Source of the DNA: Marinilabilia salmonicolor JCM 21150
Lineage (GTDB): Bacteria > Bacteroidota > Bacteroidia > Bacteroidales > Marinilabiliaceae
Direction of reading: 5' to 3'
DNA length: 64,000 nt
NCBI RefSeq assembly: GCF_000259075.1
Contig: NZ_AJKI01000031.1
Location: 124,001 to 188,000, forward strand
Part shown: positions 5,780 through 35,718 of the stretch, one piece after another
Layout of the letters: each line of letters starts with the position of its first letter
Numbering within the stretch: position 1 is the stretch's first letter
Program-made: the position numbers and the translations under genes
Notes under the pieces: generated by a model
Database searches by the model: none
Told to the model about the DNA's origin: nothing
Seen by the model: the letters and a program-made list of their open reading frames with translations, nothing else

Positions 5780-5932
5780 GTGCCTGTCCATAAACTAAGC
5801 GTTTTTCACGTGTTTGAACTAGGAAGGTCAAATTCAAGGCGTGTGAAAAATCTAAAACCACAGAATACTAAGGTATCTGAGGATTTAGATTTTGAGCAAC
5901 AACGCAGAAGTTGGACTTTTATAGACAAACAC
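5780..5932 (+). mobile_element. TIR element family A, copy A1
   Basis: 153 bases with terminal inverted repeats (GTGCCTGTCCATAAA at the left, TTTATAGACAAACAC at the right). Inside are two hairpins: TTTTTCACGTGTTTGAA with TTCAAGGCGTGTGAAAAA, and an AATCTAAA/TTTAGATT pair. It is near identical to A2 (13422-13572) and A3 (35568-35718). It starts five bases after the porU stop. Flanks AATATA/TAAATA are only partly alike. It has no coding capacity. Confidence 0.85.
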
Positions 5933-5954
5933 TAAATAACAAGGAAAAAACAAA

Positions 5955-7133
5955 ATGATGAACAAAAAATCTTGCAGTAAAGCACTTTTAGCAATCCTGT
6001 TTCTTGGTATTGCACAATTTACCACGGCTCAGGATGATGATGTCAACCTCAGTGGTCAGCAAAATATTATCAGCACTGCCGTATCGTTTCTTGACATAGC
6101 TCCGGAATCGAGAGGAGGTGCCATGGGTAATACAGGTGTGGCCATTTCTCCCGATGTGAATTCCCAGCACTGGAACCCGGCAAAGTATGCATTTATCGAC
6201 AAAGAATCGGGTGTTGCACTCTCGTACACACCCTGGCTCAGAAAGCTGGTTAACGACATCAACCTTTACTATCTGGCAGGATTTTTAAGACTGGATGACA
6301 TGCAGACCATCAGCGGATCTATTCGTTACTTTTCGCTGGGGGATATTACTTTTATGTCGGAAGATGCACAACCACAGGGAAATGCTTCTCCTCACGAGTT
6401 TGCTATAGATGCGGCCTACAGTCGCGTTTTATCCGATCACTTCTCCGGATCAGTTGCCTTTCGGTACATACGCTCCGACCTTCAAATGAATTTCAGTAAT
6501 TCTGCAGGCAGTGAAACCTATCAGGCAGGTAACTCATTTGCGGCAGATCTTGCATTCTACTATCAGAATGAAATTGACTTTGGCGGAAATGACGCCAACC
6601 TGAGTGCCGGTATCAACATTTCAAATATCGGTAGTAAAATCTCCTACGACGGAAATATTGAACAGTTTATTCCCACCAACCTGAGACTGGGAACTGCATT
6701 GAAAACAAATCTTGATGAATACAACCAACTCACTGTAGCACTGGATTTAAATAAACTTCTGGTTCCAACCCCCGATTATCAGGAGGTAGAAGAAAACAAC
6801 TCTGTTTTTCAAAGTGACAACGTGTCTGTCATCTCCGGAATCTTTCAATCTTTCAGCGATGCTCCGGGAGGGATGGAAGAAGAACTCCAGGAGATCAATG
6901 TGAGCGTGGGAGCCGAATACCTGTACAACAAGCAGTTTGCTGTTCGCGCAGGTTATTTCCACGAGCATGAAAACAAAGGAAACCGGAAATATTTCACTGC
7001 CGGTGTGGGGCTGAAGTTCAACATGCTTTCCATCGATGCTTCCTACATCATTCCGGTGGTTCAGAACAACCCGCTGGCGAACACCGTCCGGTTTACTCTG
7101 GGGCTGGACCTGGATCAGATGATCGGGCAGTAA
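5955..7133 (+). CDS. porV: T9SS outer membrane protein PorV (LptO)
   Basis: 392 residues with a signal peptide (ALLAILFLGIAQFTTAQ). PorV is a FadL-like 14-strand outer-membrane barrel. It receives cargo at the Sov/SprA translocon, binds the cargo's C-terminal domain, and presents it to PorU. The family signature SFLDIAPESRGGAMGNTGVAISPDVNSQHWNP is visible around residues 44-76, and the C-terminus LGLDLDQMIGQ is beta-barrel-like. The order porU-porV beside gldJ matches other Bacteroidota. Two adjacent ATG codons (5955 and 5958) are both possible starts. Confidence 0.93.
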   Translation: MMNKKSCSKALLAILFLGIAQFTTAQDDDVNLSGQQNIISTAVSFLDIAPESRGGAMGNTGVAISPDVNSQHWNPAKYAFIDKESGVALSYTPWLRKLVNDINLYYLAGFLRLDDMQTISGSIRYFSLGDITFMSEDAQPQGNASPHEFAIDAAYSRVLSDHFSGSVAFRYIRSDLQMNFSNSAGSETYQAGNSFAADLAFYYQNEIDFGGNDANLSAGINISNIGSKISYDGNIEQFIPTNLRLGTALKTNLDEYNQLTVALDLNKLLVPTPDYQEVEENNSVFQSDNVSVISGIFQSFSDAPGGMEEELQEINVSVGAEYLYNKQFAVRAGYFHEHENKGNRKYFTAGVGLKFNMLSIDASYIIPVVQNNPLANTVRFTLGLDLDQMIGQ

Positions 7134-7479
7134 GTTAGGATTGAGGAATGAGAAATGAAGGTTGAGATATGAAAAAGATTTGAGAGGTGAGGGATGAGAG
7201 ATGAGCTAAGAACTAACAACCAGGAGGTATGATTGGAGGTTGATGAACGGTGACTGATTCTTATTCGGTTTTCCTATTGATGGTGAACCAGCCCCAGCGG
7301 GGCGACAGTTTGGTAGCAATAGCGTTAGATTTAATGGAAAAGCCCCGGTAGGGGTGACACCTTAATTTGAAAAGACTTTCTCTTCTGCCTTCTATCTTCT
7401 GCCTATACCCCCCCGGGGCTGAACGAAGCTTTTCGTTACAGTCCTTTTTTTTGTATTTTTGCAATCTAAAAATTAAGAT
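7134..7479. repeat. porV-ispF gap: low-complexity repeats and REP-like pair G1
   Basis: 7134-7250 is a degenerate purine-rich repeat built on TGAG units. 7290-7358 is a REP-like pair, GCCCCAGCGGGGC ... GCCCCGGTAGGGG, with TTTGGTAGCAAT between. It is the reverse complement of the layout at 53187-53262 and 58340-58421. A possible ispF promoter follows. Confidence 0.7.
7431..7461 (+). promoter_or_regulatory. possible ispF promoter
   Basis: TATTTTTG at 7454-7461 fits the -7 consensus TAnnTTTG. Nineteen bases upstream is TTTC rather than TTTG, so the -33 element is imperfect. The ispF ATG is 18 bases downstream. Confidence 0.4.
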
Positions 7480-7962
7480 ATGTCAATACGTATTGGAATG
7501 GGATATGATGTGCATCAACTATCCGAAGGCTATAAACTCTGGATCGGTGGCATCGAAGTCCCTTATGAAAAAGGCTCTGTGGGCCACTCCGACGGAGATG
7601 TGCTGATTCATGCCATTTGCGATGCACTATTGGGCGCCCTGAATCTCCGTGACATCGGTTACCACTTCCCCGACACAGATCCGGCACTGAAAAGAATAGA
7701 CAGCAAAATCCTGCTCCAAAAAACCATGGAAATCATCCGGAATGAAGGGTATGAACTGGGAAATCTGGATTCCACCATCTGCCTGCAAAAACCAAAAATA
7801 AATCCTGTTATTCCCGAAATGCAAAAAACACTGGCCCGCGTAATGAGTGTGGACGCATTAAAAGTATCGGTTAAAGCAACCACCACCGAGAAACTCGGAT
7901 TTGTGGGTGAAGGCAAAGGGATCTCGGCCTATGCAACGGTGCTGTTAGCTGTTAGCTCGTAG
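7480..7962 (+). CDS. ispF: 2-C-methyl-D-erythritol 2,4-cyclodiphosphate synthase
   Basis: 160 residues, the usual IspF length. The enzyme is cytoplasmic, works as a trimer, and makes the cyclic diphosphate in the MEP isoprenoid pathway. The zinc ligands are visible as Asp10 and His12 in GYDVHQL and His44 in DGDVLIHAICDALLGA. The substrate-binding segment TTEKLGFVGEGKGI is near the C-terminus. The gene stands alone. Its last codons run into a degenerate repeat (GTTAGCTGTTAGCTCGTAG), so the final three or four residues are probably repeat-derived. Confidence 0.96.
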   Translation: MSIRIGMGYDVHQLSEGYKLWIGGIEVPYEKGSVGHSDGDVLIHAICDALLGALNLRDIGYHFPDTDPALKRIDSKILLQKTMEIIRNEGYELGNLDSTICLQKPKINPVIPEMQKTLARVMSVDALKVSVKATTTEKLGFVGEGKGISAYATVLLAVSS

Positions 7963-8010
7963 CCGTCAGTTCATTAGTTCACCAACTCATTAGTTCATTA
8001 GCGATAAATA

Positions 8011-8204
8011 GTGCCCGTCTATAAAGTCGGGAAAATTTGTAAAAGTCATATGTCTGGTCAGAAAGTGCCAATTGCAAGGCTTGCGACCGCGTGCCGCCTA
8101 AAGCTTTAGCGGTGGCGCAAGCCGCCAAAAACGGAGTTTACTTGGGTAAATGAGTATTTTGGCGGCAAGCGTAACGACGCAAATGGTACTTTATGGACAG
8201 ACAC
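8011..8204 (-). mobile_element. TIR element family B, copy B1
   Basis: 194 bases, inverted relative to B3. The ends GTGCCCGTCTATAAAGTC and ACTTTATGGACAGACAC are inverted repeats. Both sides carry the target duplication TAAATA (8005-8010 and 8205-8210). The central hairpin pairs GCCGCCAAAA (8121-8130) with TTTTGGCGGC (8157-8166) around a conserved TTTAC/GTAAA core. An extra segment of about 35 bases (near 8088-8120) is absent from B3. It ends 13 bases before the thioredoxin ATG and has separated that gene from its ancestral upstream DNA. Confidence 0.85.
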
Positions 8205-8217
8205 TAAATATTCACAA

Positions 8218-8547
8218 ATGAATACAATATCATCAATAGATCACTTCAATGAAGTTGTAAAAGAAGAAGCAGCCATACTGGTTTATTTCTCACATGAACA
8301 ATGCAATGTATGCAAGGTATTAAAGCCTAAAGTGCAAAGTCTGCTGGAGGAGAAATTCCCCCAGATGGCAATGTATTACAGCGATACAGTGAACCAGGCA
8401 GAAGTTGCCGCACAAAACCGGGTATTTGCAGTGCCTACCGTACTGGTGTTTTTTGATGGTCGTGAAACCTACCGTTTCAGCCGCAACATCGGACTCGGAG
8501 AGTTGGAGCAGTCAATACAACGCCCCTACTCAATGATTTTTGAATAG
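8218..8547 (+). CDS. thioredoxin-fold protein
   Basis: 109 residues, no signal peptide, so cytoplasmic. The redox motif is Cys29-Asn-Val-Cys32, preceded by LVYFSHEQ, and a cis-proline is visible in FAVPTVLVFFDG. The unusual CNVC active site separates it from standard thioredoxins (CGPC); a specific reductase or chaperone role cannot be assigned. The 3' end overlaps the convergent hutU by 18 bases. Element B1 ends just before the start codon, so any promoter lies in or beyond that element. Confidence 0.85.
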   Translation: MNTISSIDHFNEVVKEEAAILVYFSHEQCNVCKVLKPKVQSLLEEKFPQMAMYYSDTVNQAEVAAQNRVFAVPTVLVFFDGRETYRFSRNIGLGELEQSIQRPYSMIFE

Positions 8548-10539
8548 CCGGAAAAGCAGTTCTTCATCAGCCATATTGGGCAAAGTCACCTTCAAACGAG
8601 GTTCTTTTTCCATAGCCCTGCGGGCTGCAAAAACAGCGCCCCCGTTTCGGGCCCAGCTTCGTCTGCTAATGCCGTTGTTCACATCCCAGAAAAGCATGCT
8701 CTTCAATCGTTCGGAAGCTTCCGGAGATCCATCCAGCACCATCCCGAAACCTCCGTTTATTACCTCTCCCCAACCTACACCTCCGCCGTTGTGTAAACTC
8801 ACCCAGGTGGCACCCCTGAAGGCATCTCCAATGACATTTTGAACGGCCATATCGGCTGTAAATCCTGAACCGTCATAAATATTGGAGGTTTCCCGAAACG
8901 GACTATCGGTTCCGGAGACATCATGATGATCTCTGCCAAGCACCACCGGAGCTTTCAAACGCCCTTCGGCCACGGCCATGTTAAACGCTTCGGCAATGCG
9001 TATGCGCCCCTCTGCATCGGCATATAATATTCTTGCCTGAGAACCCACAACAAGACGATTTGACTCAGCTTCACGTATCCAGTGAAGGTTATCTCCTATT
9101 TGTTGTGCAATTTCAGGAGGAGCCTCATTTTTCATCTCTGCCAACACTTCTGCAGCTATCCGGTCCGTCTCAGAAAGATCATCTGTTGTACCTGATGTGC
9201 AAACCCACCGGAAAGGACCAAAACCGTAATCGAAACACAAAGGTCCCATAATATCCTGCACATAGGAAGGATAGCGAAAACCGCCCTTTTCGTTAAGCAC
9301 ATCTGCTCCTGCCCGACTGCTTTCCAGCAAAAATGCATTTCCATAGTCAAAGAAGTACATGCCCCGGGCCGACAACTTATTGATGGCCTCCACCTGACGC
9401 CGGAGTGAAGTCCTCACTTTCTCTTTAAACAAATCAGGTTCTTCCACCATCATCCGATTCGCTTCATCAAAAGTCAAATCCACAGGATAATACCCCCCAG
9501 CCCACGGGTTATGCAACGAGGTCTGGTCAGATCCGATATCCACCTTAATGTTTTCTTTGGCAAATCGTTCCCAAACCTCCACAATATTGCCCTGAAAGGC
9601 TATAGAAACTGTTTCTCTGTTCTCAACAGCTTTTGTTACCCTGTTGACCAGGGCATCCATATTGTCAATAACCTCATCTACCCAGCCCTGCTGGTAGCGG
9701 GTCTCCACGGCCTTAGGGTTTACCTCTGCCGTAACACTCACACAGCCGGCAATATTGGCCGCTTTTGGCTGAGCACCGGACATTCCTCCCAGTCCGGCAG
9801 TGACGAACAAAGCACCTTCTCCAGCCCCCTTACTTCCAGGACGCCTAAGGGCATTCATAATGGTAATGGTTGTTCCATGCACAATTCCCTGCGGCCCGAT
9901 ATACATAAAAGATCCGGCGGTCATCTGACCATATTGGGATACTCCCAGTGCATTAAACCTTTCATAATCGTCGGGAGAAGAATAATTAGGAATAACCATC
10001 CCATTGGTAACCACCACACGGGGCGCATTTAAGGAAGAAGGAAACAAACCTGCCGGATGACCGGAATAAAGCACCAATGTCTGATCATCAGTCATGGTTG
10101 CCAGGTACCGCATAGTAAGCAGATACTGAGCCCAGTTCTGAAAAACAGCACCGTTGCCACCATAGGTAATCAACTCATGAGGATGCTGAGCCACCTTTGG
10201 ATCCAGATTGTTCTGAATCATCAGCATAATGGCAGCTGCCTGCTGAGATTGATGCGGATATTCATCAATAGATCGCGCCTTCATTTCATACCGGGGCCGA
10301 AAACGATACATGTAAATTCGTCCGTAGGTATTAAGCTCATTCAAAAACTCGGGAGCCAGCTCTTCATGAAATTCCGGAGGAAAATAGCGCAACGCATTCT
10401 TTAGCGCCAAAACTTTTTCATCTTCCGATAAAATATCTTTACGCTTTGGAGCATGATTTACAGAAGAATCGTATGACTGCGGTTCCGGTAGCTGATCGGA
10501 GATTCCGGTCAGAATGGCTTGTTGAAAAGTATCTTGCAT
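8530..10539 (-). CDS. hutU: urocanate hydratase
   Basis: 669 residues. The cytoplasmic enzyme uses tightly bound NAD+ as an electrophile to hydrate urocanate to imidazolonepropionate, the second step of histidine breakdown. Recognisable segments are ITYGGNGAVFQNWAQYLLTM, LYSGHPAGLFPSS, YIGPQGIVHGTT and the C-terminal GGGVGWGEVINGGFGMVLDG. It is about 110 residues longer than the classical Bacillus or Pseudomonas enzyme (about 555) and belongs to the long form. No other hut gene lies in the window. The FUSC-family gene upstream is 69 bases away on the same strand. Confidence 0.95.
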   Translation of the reverse strand: MQDTFQQAILTGISDQLPEPQSYDSSVNHAPKRKDILSEDEKVLALKNALRYFPPEFHEELAPEFLNELNTYGRIYMYRFRPRYEMKARSIDEYPHQSQQAAAIMLMIQNNLDPKVAQHPHELITYGGNGAVFQNWAQYLLTMRYLATMTDDQTLVLYSGHPAGLFPSSLNAPRVVVTNGMVIPNYSSPDDYERFNALGVSQYGQMTAGSFMYIGPQGIVHGTTITIMNALRRPGSKGAGEGALFVTAGLGGMSGAQPKAANIAGCVSVTAEVNPKAVETRYQQGWVDEVIDNMDALVNRVTKAVENRETVSIAFQGNIVEVWERFAKENIKVDIGSDQTSLHNPWAGGYYPVDLTFDEANRMMVEEPDLFKEKVRTSLRRQVEAINKLSARGMYFFDYGNAFLLESSRAGADVLNEKGGFRYPSYVQDIMGPLCFDYGFGPFRWVCTSGTTDDLSETDRIAAEVLAEMKNEAPPEIAQQIGDNLHWIREAESNRLVVGSQARILYADAEGRIRIAEAFNMAVAEGRLKAPVVLGRDHHDVSGTDSPFRETSNIYDGSGFTADMAVQNVIGDAFRGATWVSLHNGGGVGWGEVINGGFGMVLDGSPEASERLKSMLFWDVNNGISRRSWARNGGAVFAARRAMEKEPRLKVTLPNMADEELLFRLFKNH

Positions 10540-10608
10540 GGTAAAAACAATTCAAAAAAGTTCTGAATGGTGAATTTAGCCACTCCTCACCAAAAATGCC
10601 ATGACAAA

Positions 10609-12732
10609 TCACAGTTCTTCCTCCGGCTTATTTCTTTCGACAAGCAATTGTCTTCCAATATCGGCGATGTTATACAACAAAATAAACTGTTGTCTTTCCA
10701 AAGGAGGAAGATCTGCCTTCAGAAGTTCCTGAACTTGCTGAATAACTGCTGAAATCTCTTCCGCTTTCACTTGTGAAGAAGAATTGCTTTCAAAGATTTC
10801 AAGGACCATTTGCCCCATGATCAAAAGCCTGGAATTTACAGACTGCCCAAGTTCCCGGTGCGCACCAAATGCAGAAACAAAGGAAAGCAGCGCATGATTC
10901 AGATGCGTCAGCTTAAATGCTTTCTTACGGAATTTTCTGTATTTCCGGGGTTCGGCCTGCATATCCTGCCAGGAGAGTGCCACGGCATTATCGGCCTGAT
11001 GGGCTTCCCTGCGGGCAATCCGGTATTCCAGATTGTCATCAGAAGTCCCTTTATCATACTCAGCCAATATTGCTCTAAGATAAATGATGTTTTTTTGAAG
11101 AGCCCCGGTAAGCAGACCCGGTAATCGCTTATATTGCCATTGCGGCCACAGAAAACGCACCGTTCCAAGGGCCAGAAAAGCTCCAATAATAGTATCAATC
11201 AGTCGTGGAAGCATTACTGGCACTCCCCGGCTTGAGATAAGATTGAAAGCACACAGCACAAAAACAGTAATAAAAACCACAGAAACAGAATATTGCCTTT
11301 TAAGCCAGGCAAAGAAGAAAAAGGCAGAAGTAAGCATCAACAAGACCTGTCCCGGCAATGTCAGTAATTTCACTATCAGCACCCCTCCCACAATACCTGT
11401 TATGGTCCCCAGCACCCTCTGAAAAAGCCGCTTACGGGTGGCACTGTAACTTGGCTGAAGAACAAAGAGAATGGTCAGAACGATCCACTCCCCTTTATCT
11501 ATTTCAAAATATTCACTGATAAAAAAACCGATCCAGAAACACAAAGCCAGGCGAATAGCATATCGAAAACGCGGATGCTGAAACGACAACTGTGACCTGA
11601 ATCTTTGCCAAAACGAACGTTCGTCACGCGAAAGTTTTGGAAGAACTGGCTGTTCAGGCTCCACTGTCAATCGCTGAAATGAGATACCTGCCCGGGTAAG
11701 GTTTCCTGTCAGTAAACGAACCGGGTGAGTTTGCTCAAGATTAAGCTGTTCCACCTTCACTGTTAAGGCATCCACAATCCATTTCAGAGATGAAGGGGAT
11801 GAAAACCGGGTTCCGGAAAGCAAACAATCTGCAAACTTACGTGCAGCATGCGACAACTCATGAAGGGTATGACCGGCAAGCTCCACCACTTCACGATTGG
11901 CAACTTCATTGCTCAGCAAATCGTATCGTTCGTGTGTACTTGCTGCTCGTTCGTGCAATCCCTGAAGAATCATAAAATAATGAAACCTTAAGGTCAGCCT
12001 CTCATCTGACTCGTTGGCATCACGGTAACTGTTCAACACCTCTTTGATGCGTTCCAGGGTGTTGACCATCTCTATATTTAACAAAGCCAGACGCCCCCGG
12101 ACTTGCTTTTGCTGAACCTTATCGCTGGGAAAAAGAGACGATTTCTCATCCATATAGCCCGAAAGGGCCATAAAACCACGCGCCAGTTGTTCATCCAACA
12201 ACCTGTAGGGACGATAATACAACAAAATCAGTGAGATAATGCCATAAAAAAGTGCTCCTCCTGGCAGCAACAAAGGCTGCCAATACCAGGCAGGCGTAAT
12301 CTCCGCCCCGATCATTGCATAAATACCAATAAGAATGGCGCCAAAAGTAACCCCCCGGTAGCGTTCTCCTGTACCTCCGACAAGAATAAAAAGAATGGTG
12401 GAAAGACCAAGACCAATGCCCAGCAGTACCGGCCAGGGCCGCAACAACTCTACCGACAAACTAGAAACCCCAAAACTAATAACTTTTAGTAGCAGAGATT
12501 TCACCCGACCGCGCGGATGATCATCTGTTTCGGACAACGCACCCGCCAGCACCCCAAGTGCGAGTGTTACAGCAAAAAAAGAAAGCCCGGCAATTTCAAG
12601 CGGGATGGCAACAAACGCCATCACAATAGTTGCTTTGGCAGCCATCAGCATATCGGGGTGCTTCCAAATATTCCGCTGCCACCGTGAAAACAAACTGTGA
12701 TTTATTAAACGGGAAAATATTCTTACAGCCAT
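10609..12732 (-). CDS. FUSC/YccS-family inner membrane protein
   Basis: 707 residues from the ATG at 12732; a TTG at 12777 could add 15. It has two halves. Each has a hydrophobic block of about five or six membrane segments: residues about 25-170 (for example FVAIPLEIAGLSFFAVTLALGVLAG) and about 385-510 (for example IRLALCFWIGFFISEYFEI and WIVLTILFVLQPSYSATRKR). Each block is followed by a helical cytoplasmic domain. The sequence LQPSYSATRKRLFQRVLGTITG is typical of FUSC-like proteins, a family that includes the aromatic-acid exporter AaeB and E. coli YccS/YhfK. The substrate is unknown. Confidence 0.8.
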   Translation of the reverse strand: MAVRIFSRLINHSLFSRWQRNIWKHPDMLMAAKATIVMAFVAIPLEIAGLSFFAVTLALGVLAGALSETDDHPRGRVKSLLLKVISFGVSSLSVELLRPWPVLLGIGLGLSTILFILVGGTGERYRGVTFGAILIGIYAMIGAEITPAWYWQPLLLPGGALFYGIISLILLYYRPYRLLDEQLARGFMALSGYMDEKSSLFPSDKVQQKQVRGRLALLNIEMVNTLERIKEVLNSYRDANESDERLTLRFHYFMILQGLHERAASTHERYDLLSNEVANREVVELAGHTLHELSHAARKFADCLLSGTRFSSPSSLKWIVDALTVKVEQLNLEQTHPVRLLTGNLTRAGISFQRLTVEPEQPVLPKLSRDERSFWQRFRSQLSFQHPRFRYAIRLALCFWIGFFISEYFEIDKGEWIVLTILFVLQPSYSATRKRLFQRVLGTITGIVGGVLIVKLLTLPGQVLLMLTSAFFFFAWLKRQYSVSVVFITVFVLCAFNLISSRGVPVMLPRLIDTIIGAFLALGTVRFLWPQWQYKRLPGLLTGALQKNIIYLRAILAEYDKGTSDDNLEYRIARREAHQADNAVALSWQDMQAEPRKYRKFRKKAFKLTHLNHALLSFVSAFGAHRELGQSVNSRLLIMGQMVLEIFESNSSSQVKAEEISAVIQQVQELLKADLPPLERQQFILLYNIADIGRQLLVERNKPEEEL

Positions 12733-12863
12733 AAAGCATCTGCGACCAGCACAGTTTTTTTTGTAGTCGGTTATCAATCCAAAAATTTCTGACTAACCAG
12801 GATTGCATCAATGAAACGAAGATGAATTTTGGAGTGCTAAATTCTCTCAGAAGAATGAACAGA

Positions 12864-13238: not shown

Positions 13239-13252
13239 ATTCTAGCTATTTA

Positions 13253-13415
13253 GTGTCTGTCCATAAAGTCCCGTTTACTGCGTTATACCATTCACGGAAA
13301 CTACTCATTTACTAAGGTAAACTCCGCATTTCCGGGAATGGCAAGCCTTGTAAACAGAACCTTCTGAACAGACACAGAACTTGTAAAAAATATTCCCGAC
13401 TTTATATACGGACTC
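13253..13415 (+). mobile_element. TIR element family B, copy B2
   Basis: 163 bases in the same orientation as B3. Left end GTGTCTGTCCATAAAGTC; right end GACTTTATATACGGACTC. It is flanked by TATTTA at 13247-13252 and 13416-13421. The central stem is CCATTCACGGAAA pairing with TTTCCGGGAATGG, quite unlike the GCCGCC/GGCGGC stem of B1 and B3, while the apical TACTCATTTAC...GTAAACTCCG is kept. Confidence 0.85.
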
Positions 13416-13421
13416 TATTTA

Positions 13422-13572
13422 ATGTCTGTCCATAAACTAAGCGTTTTTCAAGTGTTTGAAATAGAAAGTTCAAATTCAAGGCGTGTGATAAATCTAAACC
13501 ACAGAATACTAATGTATTTGAGGATTTAGATTTTGAGCAACAACGCAGAAGTTGGACTTTATAGACAAACAC
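13422..13572 (+). mobile_element. TIR element family A, copy A2
   Basis: 151 bases, near identical to A1 and A3. It is flanked by TATTTA at 13416-13421 and 13573-13578; the left TATTTA is also the right target duplication of B2. The two elements therefore sit head to tail at one target hexamer, which occurs three times. The first base of the core is A rather than G. Confidence 0.87.
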
Positions 13573-13599
13573 TATTTAGGTTTCAATGTTATTGTGCCA

Positions 13600-15420: not shown

Positions 15421-15456
15421 TGCAAAATATCTGTTTGCCGACCATAAGGCCGGATA

Positions 15457-18386: not shown

Positions 18387-19358
18387 ATGTCAAAAGCAAA
18401 GTATAAATACAATCCGGAAACGTTAACTTACGAGCCAATTGCGACGGGAACCCGTTACCTCCTTCGGCGCATTTTCACCTACTCCATGTTTTCTGCTGTA
18501 TTGGGCGTTTTTTACTTCTTAGGGTATTCTTACTTTTTTGACAGCCCGCAAGAGAAAAAACTGAATCGCGAGAATTCCAGATTACAGGCACAATACGAAA
18601 TACTAGACAAAAAACTTCAACAAGTCCAGATTGTACTGGACGATATTCAACAACGCGATGAGAATATTTACCGCGTTATTTATCAGGCCGATTCCATTCC
18701 TAATTCAATAAGACGAGCAGGTTTTGGTGGTATGAACAGATACAAACACCTTGAAAACCTGGAAAATGCGGACCTGGTGGTCAACACTTCAGAAAAACTT
18801 GACGTCATTATGAAACAGCTCTACGTTCAGAGCAAATCATTTGATGAAGTGATCGACCTCACCCTGCGCAAAGAAGAAATGCTGCGTTGCACTCCTGCCA
18901 TTCAGCCAATCTCCAACAAAGATCTTCGTCGTACAGCGTCCGGTTACGGATGGCGAATAGATCCCATATACAAAGTTAAGCGTTTTCATGAAGGAATGGA
19001 TTTTTCTGCTCCCACCGGAACAGACATTTACTCAACTGGTGACGGAGTGGTTAAAAGAGTCATTCGATCACATGGAGGCTATGGCAACCATATCGAAGTT
19101 GACCATGGATTTGGTTACTCCACCGTTTATGCCCACATGCATGAGTTTAATGTAAAAAAAGGGCAAAAAGTGAAGCGCGGGGATGTAATAGGCTGGGTAG
19201 GAAACACCGGTAAATCCACGGCTCCTCATCTCCACTACGAAGTTAGAGTCAAAGGTCGTCCTGTAAATCCTGCACACTATTACTTCCAGGATCTGACACC
19301 CGACCAGTATGAAAAAATGATTCATATTTCAAGCAACAGCAATCAGACATTTGACTAG
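18387..19358 (+). CDS. membrane-anchored M23 metallopeptidase
   Basis: 323 residues. One membrane span (about residues 32-50, SMFSAVLGVFYFLGYSYFF), a periplasmic coiled coil (about 55-100), and a C-terminal LytM/M23 domain. The zinc ligands are visible as HEGMDF (HxxxD) and HLHYEV (HxH), with VYAHMHEF between. The family cuts peptidoglycan cross-links or, when regulatory, activates amidases; all ligands are present here, so it is probably active. The stop codon TAG is made of TA from the target sequence and the G of element B3; without the insertion the gene would have ended TAA at the same place. Confidence 0.92.
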   Translation: MSKAKYKYNPETLTYEPIATGTRYLLRRIFTYSMFSAVLGVFYFLGYSYFFDSPQEKKLNRENSRLQAQYEILDKKLQQVQIVLDDIQQRDENIYRVIYQADSIPNSIRRAGFGGMNRYKHLENLENADLVVNTSEKLDVIMKQLYVQSKSFDEVIDLTLRKEEMLRCTPAIQPISNKDLRRTASGYGWRIDPIYKVKRFHEGMDFSAPTGTDIYSTGDGVVKRVIRSHGGYGNHIEVDHGFGYSTVYAHMHEFNVKKGQKVKRGDVIGWVGNTGKSTAPHLHYEVRVKGRPVNPAHYYFQDLTPDQYEKMIHISSNSNQTFD

Positions 19359-19538
19359 TGTCTGTCCATAAAGTACCATTTGCGTCCCCGAAGGATCGGG
19401 GCAGGCTGTTACGCTTGCCGCCAAAATACTCATTTACCAAAGTAAACTCCGTTTTTGGCGGCTTCACAAGCCTTGCAGCTGGCACTTTCTGACCAAACAC
19501 ATGACTTTTTACAAACTTTCCCGAGTTTATAGACGGGT
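19358..19538 (+). mobile_element. TIR element family B, copy B3
   Basis: 181 bases between two copies of ATTTGACTA (19349-19357 and 19539-19547), the longest perfect target duplication in the set. The left end is GTGTCTGTCCATAAAGTACC; the right end AGTTTATAGACGGGT is degenerate. The central stem is GCCGCCAAAA (19417-19426) with TTTTGGCGGC (19453-19462), enclosing TTTAC/GTAAA. A CAAGCCTTG motif 3' of the stem is shared with B1, and nearly so with B2. Confidence 0.87.
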
Positions 19539-19692
19539 ATTTGACTAACCCGCTTATTTAAAAACGATTCCACATCAGGAAGCAGCAATAATATTTGCAG
19601 CCTCCAAAAAAAAGAATTAAAATTGTAATTGCTGCCAAAACACGCTTTCGGCAGCAATTCTTGTATAATGGTGACCATAAATTTCTAAAACG

Positions 19693-26216: not shown

Positions 26217-26224
26217 TAACTTTG
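26217..26224 (+). promoter_or_regulatory. -7 box candidate of recR
   Basis: TAACTTTG, 17 bases before the recR ATG, fits TAnnTTTG. No clear -33 TTG. Confidence 0.4.
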
Positions 26225-26241
26225 CAACAAAACACACATTA

Positions 26242-26865: not shown

Positions 26866-26891
26866 CATAAAATTCAAAGACACCATAAAAA

Positions 26892-27350: not shown

Positions 27351-27361
27351 AAGACACAAAC

Positions 27362-27796: not shown

Positions 27797-27829
27797 CACA
27801 TCAGAATTCGCAATGAGAAAATCTGCTTT

Positions 27830-28963: not shown

Positions 28964-29235
28964 TCAAACATCACTAAAAAACGGTTTTTCATCACAAAAA
29001 AGCAATCGTTAAAAAAACTCCTGGCAATAGCTGTTTCCTCTACAACCAAAATTTCGTATTTTGACGCGTTGAAACTTAATCTGAAGAATTCAGTCTCTTA
29101 CGGAAACTCATGGAACGAGCATAGCAAGGTTTGCCTTTAGAGAAGATGTAAAAATTCTTGCATTCGAATTTCATCAGACCAATAACTTAAACATATTATT
29201 TACTGATAAATTCATCAGGCTAAAATATCGCCACC

Positions 29236-30831
29236 ATGTTGAGAAAACATTACACTTTTATCCTTACAGTGATAATCATAATAAGCATATTTTTCAATGA
29301 TGTCACAGCTCAGTCTCCCCGGAAAATAATCCGGGAGGCTAATCAGCTCATCGAAATTGCTTTTTATGAAGAAGCTATAAAAGTGCTTACCCCTCTTGCC
29401 AACGAAAAGCATCCAGAAGCACTTCTGCTGAAAGGTTTCAGCCATCTTGCCAATGACGATGAACTGGCAAAAACTATAGAGACTCTTGAAAGGGCGGCTG
29501 CACTTTATCCCCTGAAAAAAAACAGCAGCAACCAGGCACTTGAAGCTCACTTCTATCTGGGACAAGCCTATCGGCTGAACGAAGAACCCGAAAAAGCATG
29601 TGAAAAGTTTAATCAGGTAAAAGCACATACCCAAAACATCGAATTCATAGAGGATGTTGAGCAGGAAATTGCCTATTGTGAAAACTATTTGAAATTAAAA
29701 GAAAACCCCGTCGATAGAAAAATTGAGCACATGGGGGACATCATAAACAGTCCTTACGAAGACCACAGCCCCATCGTTCTGTTCGATGAATCAACCATCT
29801 ATTTCACCTCCACACGTCCGATAGATAGTCTGCAAAATGAAGGTCCTTTTTTTGAGAATATTTTTGTGAGCCACCGGCGCAATAACCAATGGACTAAGCC
29901 AAAAATGATGGAAATCCCCGGCTACGGAGGCACCAACCGTGCGACTGTTGGACTTACTCCCGATGGCCAGGGATTGATTTTTTATGAAAATTTCGGAGTT
30001 GAGGGAGCCCTGTTTGTAACCTATAAAACCTTTGAGGGCTGGAGTCAGCCGGAGCCTTTACCTGCTCCAATAAATTCAGGATTTAACGAAACACACGCGT
30101 CGTTTACCCCCGATGGAAACACCATCTATTTTTCAAGTGAAAGACCCGGAGGCTTTGGTGGTAAAGACATATATTCCTCCAGTAAACTCCCGGACGGAAC
30201 CTGGGGAATGCCCGTTAATGCGGGAGAAGTCATCAATACTCTGCAAGATGAAGAAAGTCCGTTTATACATCCTGATGGAACAACACTATATTACTCCTCT
30301 TCAGGGAAAAATTCAATGGGTGGTTACGATGTGTTTAAAAGTTCTCTAAATGAAGATGGAAACTGGAGTATCCCCGAAAACATTGGCTACCCCATCAATA
30401 CCCCCACCGATGACCTGTTTTACCTCCCTACCCCCAACGGGCAGAGAGTTTATTACTCATCGCAACAGGAAGATGGACTGGGACAATCAGATCTGTTTGT
30501 ACTGCTTTTTCCGCCTTCTGACAAACGCTCCATGGCCGTTGTATCCTCACACATTTTTAACAGCGAAAATCAACCGGCCGAAAACGCTGTCATACACGTC
30601 AGCAACCTGAACAATCAGGACATTATGGGAACCTTCAGGACCAATCCGCTGACCGGCAAATTTATTGCAATAATTCCCACCGCCCGGGAATACCAGCTTA
30701 TAATTGAAAGTGAAGGACATAAAACCTACTCTCAAACATTTAACCTCGATGCCAGGGATGATTACAAGACGAAAAACCGTGCAATTTACCTTCCGGCCAT
30801 AACACTGGAAAGTAATCAGCCTGCTGAATAA
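29236..30831 (+). CDS. TPR/PD40 beta-propeller protein with CRD-like tail
   Basis: 531 residues with a signal peptide (ILTVIIIISIFFNDVTAQ). TPR-type helices fill about 30-155. WD40-like PD40 repeats fill about 170-420 (ESTIYFTSTRP, DGNTIYFSSERPGGFGGKDIY, DGTTLYYSSSGKNSMGGYDVFKS, NGQRVYYSSQQEDGLGQSDLF). A carboxypeptidase-regulatory-like beta domain lies at about 435-520. This is the layout of the T9SS protein PorE minus its C-terminal OmpA-like peptidoglycan-binding domain, which is absent here. Either a PorE relative or another envelope propeller protein. Confidence 0.8.
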   Translation: MLRKHYTFILTVIIIISIFFNDVTAQSPRKIIREANQLIEIAFYEEAIKVLTPLANEKHPEALLLKGFSHLANDDELAKTIETLERAAALYPLKKNSSNQALEAHFYLGQAYRLNEEPEKACEKFNQVKAHTQNIEFIEDVEQEIAYCENYLKLKENPVDRKIEHMGDIINSPYEDHSPIVLFDESTIYFTSTRPIDSLQNEGPFFENIFVSHRRNNQWTKPKMMEIPGYGGTNRATVGLTPDGQGLIFYENFGVEGALFVTYKTFEGWSQPEPLPAPINSGFNETHASFTPDGNTIYFSSERPGGFGGKDIYSSSKLPDGTWGMPVNAGEVINTLQDEESPFIHPDGTTLYYSSSGKNSMGGYDVFKSSLNEDGNWSIPENIGYPINTPTDDLFYLPTPNGQRVYYSSQQEDGLGQSDLFVLLFPPSDKRSMAVVSSHIFNSENQPAENAVIHVSNLNNQDIMGTFRTNPLTGKFIAIIPTAREYQLIIESEGHKTYSQTFNLDARDDYKTKNRAIYLPAITLESNQPAE

Positions 30832-30844
30832 TACCCTCTGTCAT

Positions 30845-30876
30845 TTTGGGGAACCGGCTGCATTGATTTATTTTTG
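30845..30876 (+). promoter_or_regulatory. Bacteroidota-type promoter for the GNAT gene
   Basis: TTTG (30845-30848), 20 bases, then TATTTTTG (30869-30876). The GNAT start codon is 21 bases downstream. A TGCCGG/CCGGCA hairpin (30875-30895) overlaps the end of the box and reaches to one base before the ATG. Confidence 0.72.
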
Positions 30877-30896
30877 CCGGAATAAAATACCGGCAC

Positions 30897-31424
30897 ATGA
30901 TCAAAAACGACAAAATAATTCTAAGAGCACTTGAACCAGCTGATGCCGATTTACTATATCAATGGGAAAATCAGATGGAGTTATGGAATGTGAGCAACAC
31001 GCTTACTCCTTTTAGCCGCCATCAGATTGTGACTTACATCAATCAGATCTCCCTGGACATTTATCAGACCAAGCAACTGCGGTTGATGATTGATGTACCA
31101 AAAGAAAACCGGCAGGAGAGCATTGGCATGATTGACCTGTTCGATTTTGACCCCTACCATTCACGTGGAGGCATAGGAGTGATGATTTACAAGAAGGAAA
31201 GAGAAAAAGGTTATGCCCGGGAAGCAGTGGCCCTCTTCATTGAATATGCTTTCTCACACCTCGGACTTCATCAGATTTTCTGCGATATTTCCGAAGAGAA
31301 CACCGCCAGCATTAAACTTTTCGAAAGTCTTGACTTCAGTTTTGTCGGAAGAAAAAAACAATGGCTCAGGACACCAGCGGGTTTTAAGGATGAATTGATG
31401 TACCAGAAAATATCAGGCACATAA
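30897..31424 (+). CDS. GNAT-family N-acetyltransferase
   Basis: 175 residues of the RimJ/RimL-like type: ILRALEPADADLLYQWENQMELW at the start, GIGVMIYKKEREKGYAREAVALFIEYAF for acetyl-CoA binding, and ENTASIKLFESLDFSFVGRKKQW. The sequence places it nearest to spermidine or ribosomal-protein acetyltransferases, but the substrate cannot be assigned. It has its own promoter. Confidence 0.87.
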   Translation: MIKNDKIILRALEPADADLLYQWENQMELWNVSNTLTPFSRHQIVTYINQISLDIYQTKQLRLMIDVPKENRQESIGMIDLFDFDPYHSRGGIGVMIYKKEREKGYAREAVALFIEYAFSHLGLHQIFCDISEENTASIKLFESLDFSFVGRKKQWLRTPAGFKDELMYQKISGT

Positions 31425-31431
31425 ACAAAGG

Positions 31432-31881
31432 CTACAACTCCTGAAACGAGGGAAACCCTGAAAGCGCCTCAAAACTCCCGGTCTCCACATCTGTTTTTAT
31501 ACAATAATGGGTTAAACCGTTGGTAAGGACCAAAAATGGCACTTTCAATGTAGTGTTGTATCTGGCAGCCTGACTTAGGGTTTTAGAATCCACTGGTACC
31601 GTGGGTGCCTTGCACTCAACAATAAGCACTGGTTCTCCGCGCCTGTTGTACAATAAAATGTCACACCTTTGCGACAGTCCATTGACTTTTAACATCTTCT
31701 CCACTCCGGTAAGCACTTTCGGATAATTCAACTGTACCGCCATAAAACGCAAAAAGTTTTGCCTGACCCATTCTTCCGGTGTCAGCGCAACAAATTTCGC
31801 GCGAACCTCATCGAAAATAAACTTTTTCCCTCGTTCTTCCTTGTATCTGAAAGTGTATTGGGGCAAATTTAATCTCTTCAT
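31432..31881 (-). CDS. orphan HsdR N-terminal-domain protein (PD-(D/E)XK-like)
   Basis: 149 residues from the ATG at 31881; a GTG at 31908 would add nine, but a TATTTTTG box (31885-31892) lies inside that extension. The core is a PD-(D/E)XK nuclease-like fold: CDILLYNRRGEPVLIVECKAP with Asp and ECK motif residues. This domain is the N-terminus of type I restriction HsdR, yet there are no motor, M or S subunits nearby. Stand-alone copies are common in Bacteroidota; their role is unknown. Confidence 0.82.
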   Translation of the reverse strand: MKRLNLPQYTFRYKEERGKKFIFDEVRAKFVALTPEEWVRQNFLRFMAVQLNYPKVLTGVEKMLKVNGLSQRCDILLYNRRGEPVLIVECKAPTVPVDSKTLSQAARYNTTLKVPFLVLTNGLTHYCIKTDVETGSFEALSGFPSFQEL

Positions 31882-31959
31882 ACTGCAAAAATAAGACAAT
31901 TTAACCACCCTATACGAAAATTAAATTATATTCGTAAAAAAACCGTAAACCATAATACA

Positions 31960-32736
31960 ATGAAGACCAAAAACGAAATTGTTGAAAACTGGTTGCCAAG
32001 ATACACCGGCCGCCCCCTTAAAGAATTTACAAAACACATATTGCTTACCAATTTCAACCATTATGTGGAGTTGTTCTCCAAATGGCATAATGTGCCCATT
32101 GTTGGAGAAGATCACAATATGCCAAACTGCAGTGCCGACGGTATCACCATCATGAATTTTGGAATGGGAAGTCCCAATGCAGCAACCATAATGGATCTGT
32201 TAAGTGCTGTTGATCCTCAGGCAGTTCTTTTTTTAGGAAAATGTGGAGGACTAAAAAGAAAGAATACATTGGGCGACTTAATTCTGCCCATCGCCGCAAT
32301 TCGAAGCGACGGTACCTCCAATGATTATCTGCCACCCGAAATCCCGGCACTTCCGGCATTTAGTCTTCAACGTGCCGTATCAACTACTATTCGTGATTAC
32401 GGGCGTGATTATTACACAGGTACTGTATTTACCACTAACAAGCGGGTTTGGGAATACGACGAACGATTCAAAAAATATCTGGCTAAAACCAGAGCAATGG
32501 CCATCGATATGGAGTCAGCCACTATTTTCACCGTAGGTTTTGCCAATTCCATTCCCACCGGAGCATTGCTTTTGGTATCCGACCAACCTATGATTTCCAC
32601 AGGAATCAAAACCGACGAAAGCGACAAAAAAGTCACTAAGGAGTTTGTAAATGAACACCTTCAGATAGGCATCGATTCACTTAAGGAGATTATAAACAAC
32701 GGGAAATCGGTGAAACACCTGAAATTTGACACCTGA
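31960..32736 (+). CDS. amn: AMP nucleosidase
   Basis: 258 residues of the short form. It hydrolyses AMP to adenine and ribose 5-phosphate and belongs to the nucleoside phosphorylase superfamily. Visible are GITIMNFGMGSPNAATIMDLL, FLGKCGGLKRKNTLGDLILPIAAIRSDGTSNDYLPPE and the ribose-binding Glu in AIDMESATIFTVG. The C-terminal helix closes the fold; the long N-terminal domain of E. coli Amn is absent, as usual in this phylum. Confidence 0.92.
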   Translation: MKTKNEIVENWLPRYTGRPLKEFTKHILLTNFNHYVELFSKWHNVPIVGEDHNMPNCSADGITIMNFGMGSPNAATIMDLLSAVDPQAVLFLGKCGGLKRKNTLGDLILPIAAIRSDGTSNDYLPPEIPALPAFSLQRAVSTTIRDYGRDYYTGTVFTTNKRVWEYDERFKKYLAKTRAMAIDMESATIFTVGFANSIPTGALLLVSDQPMISTGIKTDESDKKVTKEFVNEHLQIGIDSLKEIINNGKSVKHLKFDT

Positions 32737-32837
32737 TAACAAATGAAGTTTATGGTAAATAGTTTTTAGTGAGTAGTCAAGTTTTAACCTGGTAGTGCGT
32801 TTACTAACCGACCTTTCACACAAAGCCGGAAAGATGT

Positions 32838-32935
32838 AAACAGGCTGAAAGCCTGAGACCAATAGCCCGGGACAACAGCCTGGGCATAGGGGTACTCCTC
32901 ACGCCCCCTCTTTCTTTATCGGTTGCATTGAAATC
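32838..32935 (+). repeat. REP-like palindromic element R1
   Basis: It begins AGATGTAAACAGGCTGAAAGCCTG (CAGGCT-GAA-AGCCTG hairpin), then CAATAGCCCGGGACAACAGCCTGGGC, then CTCCTCACGCCCCCTCTTTCTTTAT with a degenerate downstream arm ATAAAGAGA. It shares this order with R2 (36713-36880) and R3 (40313-40580). Confidence 0.75.
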
Positions 32936-32962
32936 AATAAAGAGATAATCAGGTTAAAATTT

Positions 32963-32970
32963 TAACTTTG
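32963..32970 (+). promoter_or_regulatory. -7 box candidate of holA
   Basis: TAACTTTG, 20 bases before the holA ATG. No well-spaced -33 TTG. Confidence 0.4.
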
Positions 32971-32990
32971 CCTGTTCAAAGAATTGATCT

Positions 32991-34001
32991 ATGGATTTCG
33001 AACAAATAGTCGCACAGTTAAAAAATGGAGACTTTGCCCAGGTATATTTCCTGTCAGGGGAAGAGCCATGGTATGCCGATTACATTACAGATTACATTGC
33101 CAAAAATGCCATCAAAGAAGAGGAAAAGTCTTTCAACCAATCAGTTTATTATGGCGCGGATATTAACACGGTGGATATAGTTGAAGCCTCGCGTAGATTC
33201 CCGATGATGGCCCCAAAACAAGTGGTTATTGTTAAGGAAGCACAGAACATCAAGGACATCAAAAAAAATGGGAATGCACTGGAATCGTACCTGAAAGCCC
33301 CGGCTCCAACCACTATTCTGGTTATCAATTACCGCGACAAGTTTGATAAACGCACAAAAGTCTGGAAGGAACTTCAAAAGAAGGAGTTCATCTCTTTTGA
33401 ATCCAAAAAACTGTGGGACAATCAGGTAGGACCCTGGATCAGCAAATATTTGAAGTCAAAAGGACTGGAAATAGACCCAAAAGCCAACACCATCCTGGTG
33501 GAACATCTTGGAAACAAACTTTCCAATGTGGTAAAAGCATTAGACAAGCTAAAAGTGGCTGTGGGCACTGATGTGAAAACAATAACCCCGCAACATATCG
33601 AAGATTACGTTGGCATCAGTAAAGACTTTAACAATTTTGAGCTACAGGATGCCATCCTGAAAGGAGATGTTTACAAAGCCAATCAGATTGCCCGGGTATT
33701 TGCCCAAAACCCCAAAGATTTCCCGATTCAGATGACCATCGGATTGCTTTTTTCCTTCTTCAGCAAATTGATGCTTTACGTAGCCACCCGGGACAAAAGC
33801 ACACAAAATCTTGCTGCGCTGGGCATTCCACCATACAGAGTAAAGCAGTTTCAACCTGCCGCCCGCCGTTTTGGCTGGAACAAAAGTCGGCGGATTGTTT
33901 CACTTTTGCGCGAATACGATATGAAGTCAAAAGGATTTAACAACAACTCTGCCACTTCGGGTGATCTTTTGCAGGAGATGATTTTTAAGATTATGCATTG
34001 A
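32991..34001 (+). CDS. holA: DNA polymerase III subunit delta
   Basis: 336 residues, typical for HolA. Delta opens the sliding clamp within the clamp-loader complex. The N-terminal domain begins VYFLSGEEPWYADYITDYIA; APTTILVINYRDKFDKRTKVWKEL and LVEHLGNKLSNVVKALDKL follow; the C-terminal collar domain ends GDLLQEMIFKIMH. The ATP-binding P-loop is naturally absent from delta. Confidence 0.93.
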   Translation: MDFEQIVAQLKNGDFAQVYFLSGEEPWYADYITDYIAKNAIKEEEKSFNQSVYYGADINTVDIVEASRRFPMMAPKQVVIVKEAQNIKDIKKNGNALESYLKAPAPTTILVINYRDKFDKRTKVWKELQKKEFISFESKKLWDNQVGPWISKYLKSKGLEIDPKANTILVEHLGNKLSNVVKALDKLKVAVGTDVKTITPQHIEDYVGISKDFNNFELQDAILKGDVYKANQIARVFAQNPKDFPIQMTIGLLFSFFSKLMLYVATRDKSTQNLAALGIPPYRVKQFQPAARRFGWNKSRRIVSLLREYDMKSKGFNNNSATSGDLLQEMIFKIMH

Positions 34002-34056
34002 GGCAGAGATTGAAGTCAGTAGTTTGTAGTCAGTAGTTTACAGAAAATAATTCCAT

Positions 34057-34680
34057 ATGCAACTAGATATCAACACCATACTCATCATCATCATATCCGC
34101 CATCAGTATTTTTGCATTCAGCAGACCCGAGATACTTGACAAGTTGAAGTTTAACGCCTGGCAAGTGGTCCATCGCAAAGAGTATCACCGGATTCTTTCT
34201 TACGGGCTGGTTCACGGCAGTTGGATGCACCTACTGATCAATATGTTTGTACTGTGGTCGTTCGGACGGGCCGTTTTGTATTATTTCGATATGGCCTTTG
34301 ACGGAGGAACTGTCATTCGCTACCTCATATTGTTCGTCAGTGCCATTGGAGTTTCAACCTTATCCACACTCAATAAGGAAAAAAACAATCCCCACTACAA
34401 TGCTGTTGGCGCTTCAGGAGCAGTCTCTGCGGTAGTATTCACCTCTATTCTGTTCAATCCTTACAATCCCATTCTGCTGTTTGGCATCATCCCGATTCCG
34501 GGCATTATTTTCGGAGTGCTGTACATCATCTATTCAAAATATATGGCAGGGAAAAATGTGGACAATATCGGACATGATGCACATTATTACGGTGCGATCT
34601 ACGGGTTGATATTTCCGCTCTTTTATGAACCCAAACTGGCTCTTCATTTTTTCAACGAACTCATTAGTTTCAATTTTTAA
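34057..34680 (+). CDS. rhomboid-family intramembrane serine protease
   Basis: 207 residues with about six membrane segments. The oxyanion Asn62 lies in HGSWMHLLINM, the nucleophile is Ser120 in AVGASGAVSAVVF, and the partner His is probably His176 in HDAHYYGAIYGL. All catalytic positions are present, so the enzyme is likely active. The partner gene for a class IV aminotransferase starts 11 bases later. Confidence 0.9.
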   Translation: MQLDINTILIIIISAISIFAFSRPEILDKLKFNAWQVVHRKEYHRILSYGLVHGSWMHLLINMFVLWSFGRAVLYYFDMAFDGGTVIRYLILFVSAIGVSTLSTLNKEKNNPHYNAVGASGAVSAVVFTSILFNPYNPILLFGIIPIPGIIFGVLYIIYSKYMAGKNVDNIGHDAHYYGAIYGLIFPLFYEPKLALHFFNELISFNF

Positions 34681-34691
34681 GATTCCACTTC

Positions 34692-35564
34692 ATGCCCCCC
34701 GGCAAAAAAAAATATCTTATTCTTAACGGTCACTTTTACGAGACCGAACGTCCGCTCTTTTCTCCGGAAAACAGAGCATTTCGCTATGGAGACGGGCTAT
34801 TTGAGACAATTCGGTGCCACAAAACCATTCCTTTGTTTTTCGAAGATCATTACAACCGGCTGTTGAGAGGAATGGCCACTTTAAAGTTAACTGCCGCAGG
34901 GCTCCCTTCACTTACTGTTCTCAAAAATCACATTGAAAAACTAATTGTCAGAAACCGCATATTCTATGATGCACGGGTAAGACTTACAGTTTTTCGTCGC
35001 GACGGAGGCTTATATACTCCGGAAACCAACAATCCGGCGTGGTTGCTGGAAGCCTTTCCTCTTGAGGACAAAGGCTTCCACCTGAACCGTGATGGGATAC
35101 GAATCGGTCTTTTTACTGAATACCCCAAAGTCTGGAGTCTTTCCGCAAGTTACAAAACACTTTCCTGCACTCCCTATATTCTGGCAGGCATTCATAAAAA
35201 AGAGAATTATTGGGACGACTGCCTCATCGTTAATCAGGACAAAATAATTATAGAAAGCATCAGTTCCAATCTTTTTTGGGTAAAAAACAACAATATTTAC
35301 ACACCGTCACTATCGTCGGGATGTGTGGACGGGATTATGCGACGCCGGATCTTTAAATTTGCTGAAGAATACAACATCGGGATAAAAGAAAACAGCGGTG
35401 CTTCGAAAGACGAACTAATGGACGCTGAAGAAATATTCCTTACCAATTCTGTTACCGGTATTACATGGGTGGTAGCATTTGAACACAAACGATATTTCAA
35501 CCGGATTCCAAAAGAAATTGAAAAATGGTTGAACCATCAATTGAAAACTATAGTTCCGGATTAA
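34692..35564 (+). CDS. class IV aminotransferase (PabC/BCAT-like)
   Basis: 290 residues of the PLP fold type IV. FRYGDGLFETIRCHKTIPLFFEDHYNRL near the start resembles aminodeoxychorismate lyase (PabC), and the PLP lysine is in SASYKTLSCTPYILAG. PabC, a branched-chain aminotransferase and D-amino acid aminotransferase share this fold, so the substrate is open; PabC is my preference on the length and the GDGLFET motif. Its TAA stop (35562-35564) is the first half of the target duplication of element A3. Confidence 0.83.
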   Translation: MPPGKKKYLILNGHFYETERPLFSPENRAFRYGDGLFETIRCHKTIPLFFEDHYNRLLRGMATLKLTAAGLPSLTVLKNHIEKLIVRNRIFYDARVRLTVFRRDGGLYTPETNNPAWLLEAFPLEDKGFHLNRDGIRIGLFTEYPKVWSLSASYKTLSCTPYILAGIHKKENYWDDCLIVNQDKIIIESISSNLFWVKNNNIYTPSLSSGCVDGIMRRRIFKFAEEYNIGIKENSGASKDELMDAEEIFLTNSVTGITWVVAFEHKRYFNRIPKEIEKWLNHQLKTIVPD

Positions 35565-35567
35565 TTA

Positions 35568-35718
35568 GAGTCTGACCAAAAACTAAGTATTTTTCACGTG
35601 TTTGAAATAGAAAGTTCAAATTCAAGGCGTGTGAAAGATCTAAACCGCAGAATACTAATGTATTTGAGGATTTAGATTTTGAGCAACAACGCAGAAGTTG
35701 GACTTTATAGACAAACAC
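35568..35718 (+). mobile_element. TIR element family A, copy A3
   Basis: 151 bases, near identical to A1 and A2, flanked by TAATTA at 35562-35567 and 35719-35724. It has inserted between the converging stop codons of the aminotransferase and yqgE. The minus-strand stop of yqgE is now TAG, whose G comes from the element end. Confidence 0.9.

Follow-up and report, generated by a model that had tools for sequence, protein, structure and literature searches.

Six short non-coding elements of Marinilabilia salmonicolor with ISNCY-type ends and a shared hairpin scaffold as probable miniature transposable elements

A 64,000-nucleotide stretch of the Marinilabilia salmonicolor JCM 21150 genome (contig NZ_AJKI01000031.1, positions 124,001 to 188,000; hereafter the window) carries six short elements of two kinds, A and B. 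They are very probably miniature inverted-repeat transposable elements (MITEs), non-coding sequences of approximately 150-195 bp on which a DDE-type transposase would act in trans; this transposase would be of the ISNCY kind, with the end and target type of ISRm17/ISRsp17 (ISDol1 group). The elements were short and non-coding, had inverted ends, 6-bp duplications and a high copy number, and an autonomous partner insertion sequence (IS) was found in other genomes, within the order and outside it, but not in the same genome. Their ends and duplications of 6-7 bp were as in copies of ISRm17/ISRsp17. The mechanism would be ordinary, that of MITEs whose IS group is already known from rhizobia. What was unusual was the breadth of the distribution, the failure to detect a resident transposase, and a hairpin scaffold kept between subfamilies that look unrelated by eye.

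The original prediction, made from the letters of the window, had described six copies with common inverted ends, and both the coordinates and the ends were confirmed (Table 1). Each copy started with GTGTCTGTCCATAAA or a close variant and finished with its inverse. The perfect direct duplications claimed for five copies were also present, A1 being the only copy without one, and B2 and A2 had their middle hexamer in common, in the order TATTTA-B2-TATTTA-A2-TATTTA. The nine-base repeat ATTTGACTA given for B3 would most simply be a 7-bp duplication, TTGACTA, together with a mutated end (..GGGTAT for ..GGGCAC), 8 or 9 bp being possible as well; the 7-bp reading was preferred because a congener has the same insertion with a differently decayed end, ..GGGCTT. 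The elements were indeed non-coding, as none lay inside a listed open reading frame (ORF) of at least 100 aa and two overlapped a stop codon by one base. At B3 the stop codon TAG of the ORF at 18387-19358 straddled the duplication and the element, and the left duplication of A3 contained the stop codon TAA of the ORF at 34692-35564, contacts explained by the fact that TAnnTA can contain a stop codon.

Table 1. Positions, strands and flanking repeats of the six putative MITEs, with matches of the interior model R1 (window coordinates)
Feature	Position	Strand	Flanking sequences	Remark
A1	5780..5932	+	AATATA 5774-5779; TAAATA 5933-5938	putative MITE, subfamily A
A1 interior-model match	5821-5907	+		E 1.2e-6
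B1	8011..8204	+	TAAATA 8005-8010 and 8205-8210	putative MITE, subfamily B
B1 interior-model match	8116-8177	+		E 8.3e-5
B2	13253..13415	- (scaffold strand)	TATTTA 13247-13252 and 13416-13421	putative MITE, subfamily B
B2 interior-model match	13278-13365	-		E 1e-8
A2	13422..13572	+	TATTTA 13416-13421 and 13573-13578	putative MITE, subfamily A; adjoins B2
A2 interior-model match	13463-13548	+		E 4.1e-8
B3	19358..19540	- (scaffold strand)	TTGACTA 19351-19357 and 19541-19547	putative MITE, subfamily B
B3 as originally predicted			ATTTGACTA 19349-19357 and 19539-19547	
B3 interior-model match	19406-19490	-		E 5.9e-9
A3	35568..35718	+	TAATTA 35562-35567 and 35719-35724	putative MITE, subfamily A
A3 interior-model match	35609-35694	+		E 2.3e-9

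The six copies and their kin are transposon insertions, as indicated by target duplications and by empty sites in congeners. The interior model described below recognised 90 elements in the M. salmonicolor genome. Duplications were counted where both ends were found with no more than five mismatches, which applied to 76 of these 90 elements and to 69 of 77 in other genomes. A perfect 6-bp duplication flanked 40 of the 76, against a mean of 5.5 when the flanks were dealt among the elements, and 38 of the 40 were TAnnTA. When one differing base was allowed, the number rose to 51 of 76 (control 26.9). In the other genomes, 36 of 69 elements had a perfect 6-bp duplication, 33 of them TAnnTA (control 6.7), and 7-bp duplications were seen in a few cases. 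Flanking hexamers that disagree in most copies had been named as a sign against the prediction; just over half agreed perfectly. The place of A1 was without an element in the congeners G037 and G039, as was that of B1 in G037 and G038, where approximately 47 bases to the left of B1 were unaligned. The empty site of B3 in G039 had a single ATTTGACTA. In G037 (contig C5, near 53175; L289), the B3 insertion was present with an internal deletion, between flanks 88-96% identical.

The 15-base end GTGTCTGTCCATAAA, with at most one mismatch, was found at 176 places in the M. salmonicolor genome and its reversed control at none, so that the occurrences are not due to chance and the six copies do not stand alone, as they would have if the prediction had been mistaken. 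The core of A was found at 82 places and that of B at 67, both with no match of the reversed controls there. Within the family Marinilabiliaceae, the A core was confined to the genus (5 of 71 genomes), and the B core occurred in 20 of 71 genomes and 8 of 21 genera. The locus L165 (1375-1515) of G122, a genome from another family of the order, held a close relative of subfamily A. Across the order Bacteroidales, the 17-base end including the target TA, with at most one mismatch, was present in 67 of 393 genomes and 52 of 207 genera; the reversed control matched in 19 of 393 genomes, 18 of them with a single match, and the single matches of the true end (19 of the 67 genomes) can be chance. At least two matches were found in 48 of the 393 genomes against one for the control, on which basis unrecognised copies are probably present in many annotated genomes. 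One genome, G003, had 304 exact ends. The spread of A looks recent, because the 40 best-scored of 168 A matches, A2 included, were at least 95% identical to A2 (40 candidates each were scored for A and B, of 168 and 172, respectively). Viral contigs gave seven exact matches to the 17-mer, none with TAnnTA flanks.

A full-length transposon with the same ends, which the prediction had proposed to look for, was detected in other genomes but not in that of M. salmonicolor. The IS of genome G159 was 1642 bp long (L170, 6887-8528) and had one ORF of 443 aa, a left end identical to GTGTCTGTCCATAAA, a right end with one mismatch, and TAATTA on both sides. Its protein matched the ISNCY family transposase model NF033593 of NCBIfam with 332 bits (cut-off 325; E 4.7e-99) and DDE_Tnp_1 of Pfam (E 3.2e-7). 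The candidate residues D144, D346 and E396 were invariant in three transposases, one of the proteins being without its first residues. Searches with the transposase found no match among PDB sequences at E<=1 and none in phage records. A scan of species genomes with three such transposases yielded 46 IS relatives, most of them in Bacteroidota; Neomarinimicrobiota, Ignavibacteria, Spirochaetia and other groups contributed a few. The left terminus was present with at most four mismatches in 36 of the 45 testable relatives (1.0 when shuffled), preceded by TAnnTA in 34 of the 36, and the right terminus in 26 of 35 (2.3 when shuffled), followed by TAnnTA in 23 of the 26. A perfect duplication was found in 13 of the 18 relatives with both flanks. 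The idea that one transposase acts on A and B in trans is supported by these same-ended IS with the same duplication, but no such IS was found in the M. salmonicolor genome, and movement in trans is presumed. We infer that an ISNCY-type transposase moved the window copies. It would bind the GTGTCTGTCCATAAA ends and cut TAnnTA with a stagger of 6 bp, in some cases 7 bp; joining of the ends to this cut would duplicate the target.

Several observations weighed against this explanation. In the M. salmonicolor genome, neither a protein search (E<=1e-10) nor the family hidden Markov model (E<=0.01) found an ISNCY transposase, and none was found in G036, G037 and G038. G039 had one weak transposase match (1.5e-6), and the strongest match in G003, a distant transposase, reached 124 bits, under the cut-off; neither locus had such an end with at most three mismatches. 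Larger transposase matches in G002 and G003 were rejected as the mover, as no end with at most three mismatches lay nearby. Nineteen of the 22 genomes of the order with at least 10 ends were without a detected mover. A perfect duplication was missing in 36 of the 76 M. salmonicolor copies, and a Microvirga copy of the rhizobial type (L309) had similar ends and no perfect duplication. The 46 IS loci contained only one weak match to the scaffold of A and B (E 0.049). The IS thus does not include the scaffold, and A and B did not arise by simple internal deletion from the IS copies observed.

The transposase gene may have been lost from the M. salmonicolor genome, or it may not have been assembled, the assembly consisting of 72 contigs in which such loss is possible. 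Four contigs of G159 broke approximately 79-92 bp inside such ends, indicating that a multi-copy IS can drop out of assemblies; in fragmented assemblies, this and true loss of the mover are in general not separable. The transposase (E<=1e-30) was found in 3 of the 22 end-rich genomes of the order versus 7 of the 371 others (Fisher p 0.014). On contig C34 of G003, a weak match consisted of 38 C-terminal transposase residues, 45% identical to the G159 protein (L206, 1255-1593). They lay approximately 225 bp inward from a one-mismatch end, with TAAATA outside. As this is the layout of the right end of the IS, the IS was probably once present in G003. A spacing of 1587 bp between ends in the same genome proved to be two B elements and not an IS. 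In M. salmonicolor, 7 of 30 exact-end loci had no paired end, and these candidates for an autonomous copy turned out to be A or B elements that had been truncated or had decayed, one of them interrupted where its contig stops.

The interiors of A and B had been described as unrelated, which did not hold. When A and B were aligned with elements of other genera, the same order of motifs appeared. A covariance model, R1, was built from nine chosen B-like interiors with trimmed ends, taken from five genomes outside the Marinilabiliaceae; L168, which had an insertion, was left out, as were the four A-like sequences L151, L165, L173 and L176. Over both strands of the window at E<=10, R1 gave six matches (E 2.3e-9 to 8.3e-5), one for each of the three A and three B copies, and A and B folded in one register. 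Elsewhere R1 was run on 95 loci of other genomes, with 82 matches, and on 63 sources of M. salmonicolor, with 90; these are match counts and not copy counts because the loci partly overlap. The scaffold was found in several families of the order. On this evidence, A and B derive as two subfamilies from a single older hairpin scaffold, which would run from the left end through a subterminal box, a replaceable stem arm, a conserved centre and a complementary arm with one bulged base to the right end. A third, AT-richer subfamily (31-33% GC) was seen in M. salmonicolor (L008, 1696-1786; L019, 1365-1454; L056, 229-318), and the copy in L056 had a stem class in common with an element of G119 (L137). 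Other genera also had elements in which these ends and TAnnTA duplications enclosed unrelated palindromic interiors (L136, L144, L160, L163 and L183), and L142 had such ends with a quite different interior; the survey demanded five of six matching duplication bases and is thus uninformative on duplication frequency. As several genomes have such same-ended elements with different interiors, the ends and the target seem to be enough for spread.

The hairpin comprised 18 pairs and one bulged base, with 92.3% of cells paired among 51 distinct sequences, only those with a 19-base centre being counted. Pairing dropped to 28.5-46.5% when the partner was slid by 1-3 bases, and with one representative per stem class (n=8) it was 83.3% versus 31.2-46.5%. 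Part of this excess stems from the choice of the stem, which was made by hand from A and B before counting; a first consensus folding of the aligned interiors gave 9 pairs only. Changes on both sides occurred at 14 of 18 pairs versus 8-12 in slid registers, and among the eight representatives at 14 versus 4-11, a weak discriminator; further pair types numbered 42 in the hairpin register versus 23-32. A better control was the exchange of right arms among 11 classes, two of them almost alike, after which the duplexes were less stable (mean energy -12.7 kcal/mol with the native arms and -3.9 kcal/mol with swapped ones; permutation p 5e-5); 134 of 172 matches were used, the other 38 being without the centre motif or full arms. 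A G.T pair at the centre was kept in 50 of the 51 sequences, and the bulge was conserved as well. We lean towards recognition of a form as the reason, because DNA repair that perfects palindromes is expected to erase a G.T mismatch and a bulge. A tentative possibility, which we rate well below even chances, is that an old hairpin module, selected for its fold as RNA or extruded DNA, rides ISDol1-type transposases between genera across the order. Its stem letters would be free and its fold kept, and it would outlive the transposase in each host, leaving hundreds of copies with either no mover or just its relic.

It is also conceivable, although unlikely, that the elements are intergenic hairpins like repetitive extragenic palindromic (REP) or enterobacterial repetitive intergenic consensus (ERIC) sequences, kept for an RNA or DNA hairpin useful to the host, with the transposon ends as the means of spreading only. 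The matching of arms across stem classes, the retained G.T pair and bulge, and the presence of the scaffold in several families would agree with this, as would the location of 88 of the 90 M. salmonicolor cores outside ORFs of at least 110 aa. The duplications, empty sites and terminal inverted repeats (TIRs) nevertheless speak for plain transposition, repair at the DNA level between arms can also preserve palindromes, same-ended elements with unrelated interiors have spread too, and the scaffold had no match in Rfam. The neighbouring genes of the cores were co-directional in 47 cases, divergent in 24 and convergent in only 13, with four cores at locus edges; there was accordingly no excess between convergent genes, and a role as terminator is unsupported by placement. 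Less probable still is that a different transposase, still present in the M. salmonicolor genome, moves the elements and that the likeness to ISNCY ends is convergence. Such a mover would account for a seemingly recent spread of A in an assembly without an ISNCY transposase. Against it stand the recurrence of the end and TAnnTA at most testable ISNCY relatives and in rhizobia, the IS relic in G003, and the contig breaks in G159, which show how a multi-copy IS can be missing from an assembly.

The frequency of tandems raised the further question of attachment sites or integron-like cassettes that pile up by site-specific recombination at one hexamer. Among the 76 M. salmonicolor elements, 21 had a neighbour across exactly one hexamer, and both hexamers were identical in 14 of the 21. 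The pairs were, however, of the types A-B, B-A and B-B, the hexamers varied from site to site, and the empty site of B3 had one copy of the target. Empty sites largely refute recombination of this kind, which we regard as very improbable. Many pairs are already predicted by the target itself: the window had 159 TAnnTA sites, 44 of them not wholly within ORFs, and as 7 of these 44 adjoined an element, approximately 1 in 10 insertions is expected beside a copy. Strong self-targeting was considered as the cause of the tandems and remained unproven, with a binomial P of 1.2e-4 at 11.7% expected and of 0.22 if this expectation is doubled on the ground that each pair counts two elements. The excess of tandems is two- to threefold at most, and perhaps nil.

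If the elements are MITEs of an ISNCY-type IS, a scaffold with exchanged but matching arms would allow selection on the hairpins of bacterial MITEs to be tested directly, and the fact that MITE-rich genomes almost lack the mover is relevant to the persistence of such swarms. In the available text of the literature searched, no link between MITEs and ISNCY/ISDol1 transposases was found; the MITEs described there were paired with IS1182, ISL3 or no named family. The end sequence was not found as text in the literature searched.

REP and ERIC sequences resemble the window elements in being intergenic, palindromic and present in many copies. REPs are without such TIRs or duplications and accompany REP-associated tyrosine transposases (RAYTs). 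Unlike REPs, the window elements have ends in common with a DDE-type IS. Porphyromonas gingivalis belongs to the same order as M. salmonicolor. Its elements BrickBuilt and MITE239, as described in the accessible part of PMC4596501, are like the window MITEs in coming from Bacteroidetes and in having similar TIRs on differing interiors, but they have an IS5-type TIR, GAGACCTTTGCA, a varying duplication length and internal 23-nt repeats. The IS1202 family, once listed under ISNCY, has a transposase similar in length to that of the partner IS. According to the available portion of PMC10132070, that transposase is TnsB-like, the ends are 5'-TGT/ACA-3', the duplications are 3-5 bp (or >15 or 0 bp), and some members target dif; the window-type ends GTG/CAC and the 6-bp TAnnTA duplication differ from TGT/ACA and 3-5 bp.

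The closest likeness was to rhizobial IS. The original prediction was right about short non-coding elements, shared ends and TAnnTA but, besides the unrelated interiors, it had recognised no published family with these ends, and this found no support, as one rhizobial copy annotated as ISRsp17 and one ISNCY copy on pSymA were alike in ends and duplication habit. Among the annotated relatives listed from a plasmid collection, the best were ISRm17 and ISRsp17 of rhizobia, approximately 34% identical to the G159 transposase. The copy annotated as ISRsp17 (L307) had the ends GTGCCCGTCCATAAACG and GTGCCCATCCATAAACG with TAGCTA on both sides, and the ISNCY copy on Sinorhizobium meliloti pSymA (L308) had GTGCCCGTCCATAAACG at both ends and a TAGTCTA duplication; the end form common to the two was GTGCCC[G/A]TCCATAAACG. 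Perfect duplications were present in two of the three rhizobial-type copies read. On pSymA (L308, 230-296), a second end, TTTATGGATGGGCAC, lay directly across TAGTCTA and may belong to a rhizobial MITE or remnant of this group. The ISDol1 group label used here follows the placement of ISRm17 in that group (printed 'ISDoll') in the accessible text of PMC10194956 and is not a formal ISfinder assignment. ISRm17 and ISRsp17 are full-length IS of rhizobia, whereas the window elements encode no protein, have a hairpin scaffold and come from another phylum; what they have in common is the type of end and the habit of duplication.

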